DNA of 64,000 nt from Trinickia caryophylli (GTDB lineage: Bacteria; Pseudomonadota; Gammaproteobacteria; Burkholderiales; Burkholderiaceae), in NCBI RefSeq assembly GCF_034424545.1, contig NZ_CP139970.1, positions 3,844,001 to 3,908,000 on the forward strand, in the 5' to 3' direction. The position numbers and the translations under genes are program-made. The notes under the pieces are model-generated. The model made no database searches. It saw only the letters and a program-made list of their open reading frames with translations, and was not told the DNA's origin. This document shows, piece by piece, positions 11,633-34,084 of this stretch (positions are counted from its first letter, which is position 1; each line of letters opens with the position of its first letter).

Positions 11633-11647
11633 GCAAGCTTCGTGCCC
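11633..11647 (-). promoter_or_regulatory. Candidate sigma-54 promoter for pqqA
   Basis: The minus strand reads GGGCACGAAGCTTGC. Against the sigma-54 consensus TGGCACG-N4-TTGC, 10 of the 11 defined bases match, with GG and GC at the correct spacing. The start of transcription would be near 11621, giving a leader of about 70 nt to the pqqA ATG. No sigma-70 promoter of comparable quality was noticed between it and pqqA. Confidence 0.65.
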
Positions 11648-11950
11648 GGCGCAATCCGGAATCGGACAGCGCACACCTGGCGGACGGCATTCGCCACAGC
11701 GGCACTTGCGAATCAGTATGACAGCTGGTTCGCTCGGATGCACGCCTCGCAAACACCAATAAAGGCAACGACGAGGACGGTGCGGCGCGCCTCGCGAAAC
11801 GTGCTTCCGCAGGGGTGGCATCACTGTCGCGAAATCGCAGCAAAGTGTGCCATCGCATGCGCGCCGACCACGTTCGTCTGTCACTGCCCAGGCGTCGATT
11901 CGCTTCGCGGGCATCGTCATCATGAGCGAACGCATCGTTTTCGACATACG

Positions 11951-12026
11951 TCGATTTCGCAATCGAGCTTCACGATCCGCAATCGATAATGCATCGCTTA
12001 ATTCCTGGGAATGAAATCGTGATTTC
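11951..12026. promoter_or_regulatory. Cluster of dyads and direct repeats upstream of cbbL (possible CbbR or activator sites)
   Basis: TCGATTTCGCAATCGA at 11951-11966 is an inverted repeat with perfect 6-bp arms. Its half CGCAATCGA recurs at 11978-11986, exactly 20 bp further, two helical turns. A second dyad, GAAATCGTGATTTC, lies at 12013-12026 just before the -24 element. LysR-type regulators such as CbbR bind dyads of this sort upstream of cbb promoters; a matching regulator gene lies at 38718-39683. The assignment is inference. Confidence 0.5.
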
Positions 12027-12030
12027 CCAA

Positions 12031-12045
12031 TGGCTTCGAGCTTGC
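12031..12045 (+). promoter_or_regulatory. Candidate sigma-54 promoter for the cbb operon
   Basis: TGGCTTCGAGCTTGC has TGGC and TTGC separated by exactly 7 bp as in sigma-54 promoters; 8 of 11 consensus bases match. The leader to the cbbL ATG would be about 60 nt, similar to that of pqqA on the other side of this control region. It is weaker than the pqqA and pterin-dehydratase elements, and a CbbR-dependent sigma-70 promoter remains possible. Confidence 0.45.
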
Positions 12046-12116
12046 CTAGAGTGCGAATCAAGCGCTTCGCTTCCAGACACTGCAAAGCGCGCTCTCGTCA
12101 AACTCGAGGACACGTC

Positions 12117-32174: not shown

Positions 32175-32258
32175 GGCAAAAGACTCTGGTCGTGAGCGGT
32201 TATGGGCGGCGCATGAAGAACGAAAGAGGGCGGGCGGCGCACGGGGGCGCGGCGGCGC

Positions 32259-33287
32259 TCATGCCGCGTCCACGCGCTCTTCGCGCGCGCCGGCCACGCG
32301 AACCACGGCGCCGCGATTGCGCGCCCGGACCACGGCGCATTCGATGTGGGGCTTGCCACGTGCAGCCGCGCGCGCGGCTGTCAGCGCATCGTCGGCCTCC
32401 TGCGCGCTAGCCAGGAACGCGAAGCCCGTGGGCCCCCAGGAGGTCTGACCGATGCCGGCCATGCGTTCGGTCGCGGCTGCGCGCAGCGAGGTCTCCACGT
32501 CGGGGCTCGCGAACACACCGCCTTGCACGGGCGCGAAGTACTCCCCGATCGTTTGCTGCAGTTCGGTGACGCCTGCGGCGAACGCCGTGAAATCGGCTTC
32601 GGCCGCCGCCGGCATGATCCGCATCAGCGCGAGATGGCACAGGTGCGCGGCGAGGTGTTGCGGAAACGGCGCGAGCGTGGCGAGCCCGCGCCGCTCTGCA
32701 TCGCCGGACAATCCCTCGCGCGAAGTATCGGTGACGAGCAGCACGCGCCATTCGTCGGGAAACGGCTGGCGTGAGACGAGCGGCGGCACACCTGCGGCCT
32801 GTACGCCGCGGCTGCTGCCCCCATCGAGCAGCAGGCCCCCCGAGTCGAAGCCGAGAATGCCGATGCCCGAGCGGCGGCCCCGACCGAGCAGATGGGCGAT
32901 TTCGGCGGTCGTGGCCGTATGGCCCGTGAGCCGTGCGTAAGCCGTCCCCACAGCCAGAGCGAGTTGCGTGCCGGAGCCGAGACCCGTGTGTGCGCGCGGC
33001 GTGCGCACCACGTTGCAGACGATGGGCTTCGCGCCGTACGCCTCGCGCAGCCGGTCGAGACACCAGGCGATGCGCGCGCGTTCGCCGGCGGATGCCGCAC
33101 CTTCGATGGAATCGGCCGCGGCCATGCGGGCCTCGATATGGGTTCCCTCGCCGTCGATGACGAGCCCGAGACTGCCGAACGCGCGCCCGAGCGTGCCGCT
33201 CGGATCGAGAAAGCCGAGGTGGAGCCGGGCGGGGGCATCCACGCTCACCGCGCTGCGCGGCGAATGACGGCGAAAATGAAGCGGCAT
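32259..33287 (-). CDS. mptG: Beta-ribofuranosylaminobenzene 5'-phosphate synthase
   Basis: This 342-residue GHMP-kinase-like protein reads SVDAPARLHLGFLDPSGTLGRAFGSLGLVIDG, RTPRAHTGLGSGTQLALAVG and GIGQTSWGPTGFAF. Beta-RFAP synthase couples p-hydroxybenzoate or p-aminobenzoate with PRPP, the committed step of H4MPT synthesis. ATG 33287 gives the normal N-terminus. It is 85 bp before mtdB, and a 321-bp gap separates it from the pterin dehydratase gene. Confidence 0.93.
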   Translation of the reverse strand: MPLHFRRHSPRSAVSVDAPARLHLGFLDPSGTLGRAFGSLGLVIDGEGTHIEARMAAADSIEGAASAGERARIAWCLDRLREAYGAKPIVCNVVRTPRAHTGLGSGTQLALAVGTAYARLTGHTATTAEIAHLLGRGRRSGIGILGFDSGGLLLDGGSSRGVQAAGVPPLVSRQPFPDEWRVLLVTDTSREGLSGDAERRGLATLAPFPQHLAAHLCHLALMRIMPAAAEADFTAFAAGVTELQQTIGEYFAPVQGGVFASPDVETSLRAAATERMAGIGQTSWGPTGFAFLASAQEADDALTAARAAARGKPHIECAVVRARNRGAVVRVAGAREERVDAA

Positions 33288-33608
33288 CGCTGGGTTCCTC
33301 GTTGGGCGTGACGGCCGGGCCGCCGAGGCGCCGCACCCTCGGGCGGGGCGCGGGCGCGCCGGCAGGCCGGCAGATGGCGGGATGGGAAGCAGGAGGCGTA
33401 CCATGGCCCGCCGCGCCCCGTCGCAGCGGGCTCTCGAATGTGCGGGGCACCTCGGCGTCGCCGTCGTGTGTGCGCCTTGCTCTCAGCGGTTTGTGCCGTG
33501 CGAGACGCACTGTGTCACCCGATCGGCGCGGGTGCCCGGCCGGGCCGATCGGCGCGCAAGTGTGGCGGCGGCCGGGTAGTGGTAGTGGTGGCGGTGACGG
33601 TGGCGGAC
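33288..33608. other. Gap between the pterin dehydratase gene and mptG; no gene seen
   Basis: No credible gene. It contains a direct repeat CCGATCGGCGCG (about 33520 and 33548) and a GGTGGC-like simple repeat near 33580-33600. A promoter for mptG could lie here but none is clear. Confidence 0.5.
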
Positions 33609-34007
33609 TCAGCCCTGCGGGGCTGCCTTGGGTGCGTCGTATTTGATATAGCGGAAGCGCTGGTCGTCGGCCGGCGTGCCTTCGAGCGGCCCGCCTTCCC
33701 GGCCGGGCTGCCACTGCACGACCTCCTCGATCCTGGTGGCCAGCGCAAAGTCCTTGTCCGTGATCCCTTTGGCGCTATGGGTCTTCAGCTTGACGATGAC
33801 GAACGCATACGACACGGTGAGGTCGGGATGGTGCCAGGCCGCCTCGGCCAAGTGTCCGACGGTCATGACGACCATCAATGTGCCTTTCCAGCTTTCCGTG
33901 CGGTATTTCCGGCGCAGCCACCCGTCCTCCATATACCAATGTTCGAGCGGACCGACGAGACGCGCGCTGATCTCGTCGTCGGAATACACCTTTTCGGCTT
34001 GGCTCAT
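33609..34007 (-). CDS. Pterin-4a-carbinolamine dehydratase-like protein
   Basis: This 132-residue protein shows the PCD/DCoH signature: AEAAWHHPDLTVSYAFVIVKLKTHSAKGITDKDFALA, with the paired histidines of the active site. The family dehydrates a hydroxylated pterin; here the natural substrate may be an H4MPT-related pterin, since no aromatic amino acid hydroxylase is nearby. It is the first gene of the leftward H4MPT operon and is preceded by the best sigma-54-like element of the window. N- and C-terminal extensions make it longer than the usual 95-110 residues. Confidence 0.87.
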   Translation of the reverse strand: MSQAEKVYSDDEISARLVGPLEHWYMEDGWLRRKYRTESWKGTLMVVMTVGHLAEAAWHHPDLTVSYAFVIVKLKTHSAKGITDKDFALATRIEEVVQWQPGREGGPLEGTPADDQRFRYIKYDAPKAAPQG

Positions 34008-34069
34008 GGTTGGGGCTCCACACAGGAAAAGCGAGCCTTGGCAAAGCGGCTCGAAGGAAAAACAAGGCT

Positions 34070-34084
34070 GCAATTGCCGCGCCA
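34070..34084 (-). promoter_or_regulatory. Candidate sigma-54 promoter for the pterin dehydratase-mptG-mtdB-mch-fae operon
   Basis: The minus strand reads TGGCGCGGCAATTGC, followed by A and preceded by C. It matches 10 of the 11 defined bases of TGGCACG-N4-TTGC and also the flanking preferences. Transcription would start near 34058, about 50 nt before the ATG at 34007. Confidence 0.7.

Follow-up and report, generated by a model that had tools for sequence, protein, structure and literature searches.

A candidate RpoN regulon linking methanol oxidation, PQQ and tetrahydromethanopterin genes in Trinickia caryophylli and its relatives

A stretch of 64,000 nucleotides (nt) from Trinickia caryophylli (G000:C1:3844001-3908000, hereafter the window; genome of 6.59 Mb in two contigs, 66% G+C) carries an island of genes for the methanol dehydrogenase XoxF, pyrroloquinoline quinone (PQQ), the tetrahydromethanopterin (H4MPT)/methanofuran path and the Calvin cycle, together with a gene for a sigma-54 activator. 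We propose that in these soil and plant bacteria of the Burkholderia family the island probably holds a dedicated RpoN regulon, in which this one activator would serve the genes for oxidising methanol, for PQQ and for the H4MPT/methanofuran path, and of which the Calvin operon would not be a member. Across related genomes the -24/-12 elements of xoxF, pqqA and fhcB are conserved, blocks further upstream are conserved, and every genome with the activator also carries xoxF or fae. An earlier interpretation made from the letters of the window (the sequence-only reading) had suggested a single network that also took in the Calvin genes.

Elements were scored on a 12-position -24/-12 scale (TGGCACGNNNNTTGCW), which gives 10 to the string upstream of pqqA, 11 to that of the pterin dehydratase gene and 8 to that of cbbL. 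The sequence-only reading had located all three correctly, and its leaders of 50-75 nt agree with those computed here: with the start taken 12 nt past the -12 C, 72 nt for pqqA, 51 nt for pterin dehydratase and 60 nt for the cbbL candidate. The score is uninformative alone because, at 66% G+C, forward and reversed motifs are alike in the window and the reversed motif is commoner genome-wide. The window holds 132 GG-N10-GC sites scoring exactly 8 versus 158 for the reversed motif, and 7 versus 5 scoring at least 10, with the pterin dehydratase site the only one to reach 11/12. We therefore footprinted the same intergenic regions in relatives from Trinickia, Paraburkholderia and Caballeronia, using the activator flanks from 35 relatives and the stretches further down from 20; rows are absent for genomes in which the contig stopped short or the gene was missing. 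A second locus set (n=80) overlaps in species with the relatives' set.

In this comparison, pqqA, xoxF and fhcB are each preceded by a GG-N10-GC element that is conserved in its position. The pqqA element scores at least 9/12 in 31 of 32 relatives versus 2/32 for the reversed control, and was found by pattern in 33/33 genomes including T. caryophylli and in 14/14 loci of the second set. The xoxF element, missed by the sequence-only reading, scores at least 9/12 in 19/29 relatives versus 3/29 for the reversed control. By pattern it is present in 30/30 genomes, 148-164 nt before the ATG (the exception, G106, has it at 252), and in 46/47 loci of the second set, the 47th (L099) being a 34% identical match to another gene. 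The fhcB element, also missed, is present by pattern in all 28 genomes. Paraburkholderia xenovorans LB400 (L110) has the xoxF and pterin dehydratase elements and the upstream site that lies between them.

Permuted motifs provided a further control across 23 upstream sets, from which mptG, duf447 and fhcA were excluded. A gene reaching 10/12 in 75% of genomes came up for 3 of 300 permuted motifs; with the real motif there were two such genes, pqqA and fae. Both xoxF and fhcB fail this test, at 0.07 and 0.46 of genomes, and some fhcB elements lie past the assumed start; the case for these two elements is therefore one of position and conservation, not of score. Upstream of the activator gene itself, cbbR, cbbX, cbbA, mptN and xoxJ we found no conserved element, and there were weak counts at 9/12 for dhps (9/33) and mfnE (7/31). 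We discarded a further xoxF candidate near -70 (AGGCGCGCACGATGCA) because T. caryophylli, G059 and G088 have lost its -24 GG.

The activator consists of GAF, PAS-like, sigma-54 AAA+ (PF00158, with GAFTGA) and Fis-type helix-turn-helix (PF02954) domains, as do AcoR/DhaR-type activators. With its AAA+ domain, Walker A, GAFTGA and DNA-binding domain it is a sigma-54 enhancer-binding protein by its domains, and GAFTGA and Walker A are present in 110/110 orthologue loci. The sequence-only reading was right that an activator with intact GAFTGA is encoded inside the island. Its gene heads a row: the Flavoprotein-family and DHPS-like genes follow it, and consecutive gene ends overlap. The activator is not further matched to a known protein by this row. 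The N-terminal half of the activator matches the sensor region of DhaR (PDB 4lrx; E 2.3e-5), from which it differs in its setting of methanol, PQQ and H4MPT genes and in a profile score of 274.7 bits versus the NCBIfam curated cut-off of 551, so that it is not a DhaR equivalog. The genome encodes two RpoN proteins (PF04552; C1:2700477, L178, and C1:3264854, L179).

Orthologues of the activator (at least 60% identity) are present in 36 of 200 genomes of the family, xoxF in 35 and fae in 34. All 36 activator genomes carry xoxF or fae, and every fae genome has the activator. The only xoxF genome without an orthologue is G166, whose xoxF (G166:C91:1258-3063) has two in-frame TAG stops. Two genomes, G059 and G088, have lost fae and most H4MPT genes and kept the activator, the shared upstream site and the xoxF and pqqA elements; G004 has no xoxF and has kept the activator and the fhcB element. 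Because the genomes are related, this match does not amount to 200 independent tests.

Roughly 50-280 bp upstream of the elements lie GACAC-type blocks that resemble activator sites. Between the divergent pterin dehydratase and xoxF genes, the near-palindrome TTGACACAGTATGTSTCG matches its 15-base core at 13 or more positions in 30/30 genomes. At no more than 1 mismatch, 13 of the 15 genomes searched have a single copy, at the island place, G004 has none and G176 has one elsewhere; copies with 2 mismatches do occur elsewhere. In T. caryophylli about 122 bp separate its centre from the pterin dehydratase -12 and about 189 bp from the xoxF -12, and in G059 and G088, where the intervening genes are gone, it sits between mtdB and xoxF. 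As the site contains TTGACA we considered a sigma-70 promoter, which was dropped by eye with no conserved -10 seen behind it in the part inspected. The pqqA block, 53 to 201 bp upstream of the pqqA element, has at most one match per genome in the 15 genomes searched for it, at the island (11/15 with a match). It is kept in G081, G116, G190 and G196, whose fetched stretches are without cbbL, and is therefore hardly a Calvin site. The fhcB site takes the form GTGACACTCTGCTCC...CACACAACCTGTGC, found by pattern in 21/28 genomes; in G040, G135 and G156 its second half is GCACATACTGTGC, near the reverse reading of the xoxF site. Separately, in several Caballeronia (e.g. L064, L074, L199) the interval from fhcB to where this site normally lies carries a hairpin-like stretch, GCTGCTTTCTTTG...CAAAGAAAG, that recurs among them.

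Matrices built from one site were used to predict the others. The fhcB-site matrix had its best match on the block in 25/33 pqqA and 21/30 xoxF regions, and exceeded the 95% null in 13 pqqA and 15 xoxF regions, not always on the block. The counts were 13/27 fhcB regions for the pqqA matrix, and 9/27 fhcB and 16/33 pqqA regions for the xoxF-site matrix. Cross-prediction thus supports the kinship of the three sites unevenly, and they appear related but unlike.

Several results weigh against a single regulon. In the same cross-prediction the pqqA matrix reached just 2/30 xoxF regions, and in none of the 33 pqqA regions did the xoxF-site matrix exceed its 95% null. A symmetric form of the xoxF-site matrix did no better than shuffles; the fhcB upstream site was not found by pattern in 7/28 genomes. 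A genome-wide motif scan, suggested with the sequence-only reading as a check, gave no enrichment (63 sites versus 96 for the reversed motif at no more than 1 mismatch). The 33/33, 30/30 and 28/28 counts come from patterns that already contain GG and GC, and the xoxF elements score just 8-10 of 12. The pterin dehydratase promoter is weaker than had been claimed: the string holds up in the window at 11/12, but among relatives reaches at least 9/12 in 11/28 versus 4/28 for the reversed control, and in 26/57 loci of the second set, a few at odd places. The two same-genus relatives with the gene have no element (G068) or just 8/12 (G106). Upstream of fae, the permutation control brought up TGGCACGGAACATGTT, a pattern present in 30/31 genomes and lying directly after the citG stop in T. 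caryophylli. Its -24 half is conserved and the -12 C is replaced in all 30, by T in 24 genomes and by A in 6; without GC at -13/-12, the string may be a weak or variant sigma-54 promoter. The evidence for the regulon is that of sequence, from which we infer binding by the activator, dependence on RpoN, the ligand, the transcription starts and the extent of the operons.

The inclusion of the Calvin operon did not survive the comparison. A cbbL string with exact spacing is present in the window, but no relative (0/28) has an element at that place and 8/12 is at background. The alignment instead shows a conserved TAC--TG and TCGTGAATTC there, and we rejected cbbL as a sigma-54 promoter. It is therefore highly improbable that the activator also drives cbbL. 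Because the element is kept in none of the relatives and a sigma-70-like site stands there, we place the Calvin operon outside the network; its promoter looks sigma-70-like, a CbbR-like gene is nearby, and it is probably outside the RpoN regulon. One sigma-54 network over the methanol, PQQ and H4MPT genes, with its own activator inside the island, is supported by the pqqA, xoxF and fhcB elements conserved across genera and by the co-occurrence. The alignment of intergenic regions, which had also been suggested as a check, kept the pqqA element in all. We give similarly little credence to the conserved strings being binding sites of other regulators and not promoters. The xoxF string is indeed near-palindromic (GCAT-N5-ATGC) and the fae string has lost its -12 C; yet the palindrome is broken in the xoxF strings of G059 and G088 (GCAT..GTGC) and of L102 and L122 (GCAT..CTGC), all of which keep GG-N10-GC, and no such symmetry is present in the strings of pqqA and fhcB.

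Other pqqA genes in the family bear on a further explanation. Genomes without xoxF hold 28 PqqA-family matches, in 27 genomes, two of which (G004 and G176) have the activator. Of the readable pqqA genes among them, 20/23 carry a -24/-12 element at 9/12 or better, and a paralogous activator is found within 14 of the 28 loci; sigma-54 control of pqqA therefore looks general in the family. T. caryophylli has a second pqqA (L232, G000:C1:1132001-1142000) with its own element, CGGCATGCGCCTTGCT, behind a sigma-54 activator 41% identical to that of the island. The sigma-54 promoters could thus be real with another regulator driving some of them, for example the paralogous activator at the second pqqA or a LuxR-type regulator encoded 3' of pqqE. 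We consider this unlikely, although these modules lend it some weight, as does the loose resemblance of the pqqA block to the xoxF site. There is also a precedent in Azospirillum exaA, a PQQ alcohol dehydrogenase gene under sigma-54 control, where a LuxR-type regulator is reported to work with sigma-54 (PMC6115532); that system differs from the island in having a LuxR-type regulator and no AAA+ activator of the island kind. On the other side, the pqqA block is confined to the island in the 15 genomes searched, in which respect the modules elsewhere differ, and the activator tracks xoxF or fae. The new feature is not sigma-54 control of pqqA; it is that the xoxF, PQQ and H4MPT/methanofuran genes would have an activator of their own.

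These data allow us to hypothesise how a dedicated regulon would work. The activator, as a one-component AcoR/DhaR-type enhancer-binding protein, would meet a signal, probably linked to one-carbon (C1) metabolism, through its N-terminal sensor and bind the GACAC-type sites in the three intergenic regions. By DNA looping it would activate sigma-54 polymerase at xoxF (xoxFGJ), at the pterin dehydratase promoter (H4MPT genes) where that promoter survives, at pqqA, and at fhcB, whose putative operon would comprise fhcBADC, the cytochrome b561 gene and pqqBCDE. The fae gene may have a variant sigma-54 site.

Two leader features may add to this control. In the predicted xoxF leader RNA a conserved hairpin keeps its pairs in 95.3% of cells, versus 25-41% when slid. 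A model of it scores at least 32.6 bits in the window and in all 46 second-set loci with an island xoxF; the next-best match has 19.1. Many of these loci share a species with the training set, and their positions were not checked singly. Folding of single sequences did not outperform shuffles (z 0.98 to -0.60), and RNAalifold on the leader alignment returned the outer stem, a different inner stem and no pair changed on both sides. The case for the hairpin is its pairing across genomes, in which changes in the outer stem are confined to one side; an Rfam search of the window gave no match. For fhcB, an in-frame ATG follows 8-16 nt past the -12 C in 28/28 genomes, none of which has a GGAG, GAGG or AGGA core between the two, and in 19/28 there is no alternative start codon ahead of the CPFC motif. 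With the ATG so close and no Shine-Dalgarno-like core, the fhcB mRNA is predicted to be leaderless or nearly so.

Sigma-54 control of related pathways has been described. The alcohol-responsive enhancer-binding protein BmoR acts at the butane monooxygenase promoter of Thauera butanivorans from a site 193 bp upstream of the -24/-12 (PMC8899819), and soluble methane monooxygenase is under RpoN control with the consensus YTGGCACGrNNNTTGCW (PMC5874634), in which MmoR is named in a reference title. We liken both to the island by description and not by sequence comparison: BmoR has other target genes, and the RpoN/MmoR system likewise controls a C1 oxidation enzyme, but its targets are those of the methane step, in methanotrophs, instead of xoxF, PQQ or H4MPT genes. 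A search of the open literature, with most subscription papers beyond reach, found no RpoN control of xoxF, pqqA or H4MPT genes.

Table 1. Features of the island, in window coordinates
Feature	Position	Strand	Remarks
pqqB	start ~321, runs past left window edge	minus	then pqqC, D, E outside window
Cytochrome b561 gene	318-959	minus	after fhcC
fhcB, fhcA, fhcD, fhcC	1010-5979	minus	fhcB named by gene order and conservation
fhcB -24/-12 element	5991-6006	minus	CGGCATAGACCTTGCT; ATG 12 nt past -12 C
Candidate activator site of fhcB	6141-6177	minus	GGTGACACTCTGCTCCAGTTCGGCACACAACCTGTAC
MfnB-like gene, DUF447 gene	DUF447 10775-11389	minus	between fhc genes and pqqA
pqqA (24 aa)	11475-11549	minus	ATG 11549
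pqqA -24/-12 element	11632-11647	minus	GGGCACGAAGCTTGCG; string of sequence-only reading GGGCACGAAGCTTGC at 11633-11647
Candidate activator site of pqqA	11823-11849	minus	CACACTTTGCTGCGATTTCGCGACAGT
Likely sigma-70-type cbbL promoter	12024-12052	plus	TTCCCA-N17-TAGAGT; overlaps rejected candidate
cbbL -24/-12 candidate	12031-12045	plus	TGGCTTCGAGCTTGC; 8/12; rejected
cbb row, cbbL to cbbA	12117-20555	plus	cbbL ATG 12117
MfnD-like, MfnE-like genes, folB		plus
DHPS-like gene	20820-22208	minus	TIGR00284 match under curated cut-off
Flavoprotein-family gene	22187-22783	minus	PF02441
Sigma-54 activator gene	22780-24831	minus	head of activator/flavoprotein/DHPS-like row
H4MPT genes: pterin dehydratase, mptG, mtdB-like, ATP-grasp gene, mch, mptN-like, citG-like, fae	26353-34007	minus
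fae sigma-54-like string	26993-27008	minus	TGGCATGAAACCTGTT; -12 C replaced
Pterin dehydratase gene	ATG 34007	minus	PF01329
Pterin dehydratase -24/-12 element	34069-34084	minus	TGGCGCGGCAATTGCA; 11/12; string of sequence-only reading TGGCGCGGCAATTGC at 34070-34084
Candidate site common to divergent xoxF/pterin dehydratase promoters	34183-34200	plus	TTGACACAGTATGTCTCG; near-palindrome
xoxF -24/-12 element	34367-34382	plus	CGGCATGGAATATGCG; predicted leader ~135 nt
Conserved hairpin in predicted xoxF leader RNA	34439-34483	plus
xoxF	34528-36378	plus	TIGR03075
xoxF-xoxG-xoxJ	34528-37910	plus
CbbR-like gene	38718	plus

The frames supplied for cbbS, cbbP and fhcB had no hidden Markov model match (for fhcB, a Pfam search gave none), and their names follow gene order; mtdB is the name given by the sequence-only reading, where the profile matches are weak dehydrogenase ones. 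XoxF of the window has a DEWDYDG motif whose second Asp, two residues past the catalytic Asp, we take to be the lanthanide signature of XoxF methanol dehydrogenase; this Asp is present in 29/29 relatives. As pqqC, D and E come after pqqB outside the window, pqqA lies about 11 kb away from pqqBCDE. The DUF447 gene is 3' of pqqA and, like the MfnB-like gene, may share the pqqA promoter. Left of the window, 3' of pqqE, is a LuxR-type response regulator gene (UvrY/SirA/GacA-like match; L203:6362-8185, minus strand). Between fae and the activator gene, a 133-aa protein (25830-26231) with no Pfam match is kept in the stretches of 30 relatives. After cbbR, a putrescine uptake and breakdown cluster (39712-57805) encodes Pot transporter parts and PuuR-like, PuuC-like, agmatinase-family and GGput-synthetase-like proteins.

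Little is known of xoxF regulation outside classical methylotrophs, and two-component switches are known from other lanthanide users. Tentatively, and with somewhat more doubt than confidence, we suggest that in Trinickia, Paraburkholderia and Caballeronia the methanol-to-CO2 route and its cofactors (XoxF, PQQ, H4MPT and methanofuran) may form one RpoN regulon under a one-component C1 sensor that replaces such switches, with leaderless fhcB and the xoxF hairpin as a post-transcriptional layer. The analysis names an activator, candidate sites for its binding and precisely located promoters, all of which can be put to the test, for example in P. xenovorans LB400. It also suggests that pqqA is widely under -24/-12 promoters in the family and, if the proposed regulon is true, rare-earth methanol oxidation would be tied to RpoN.

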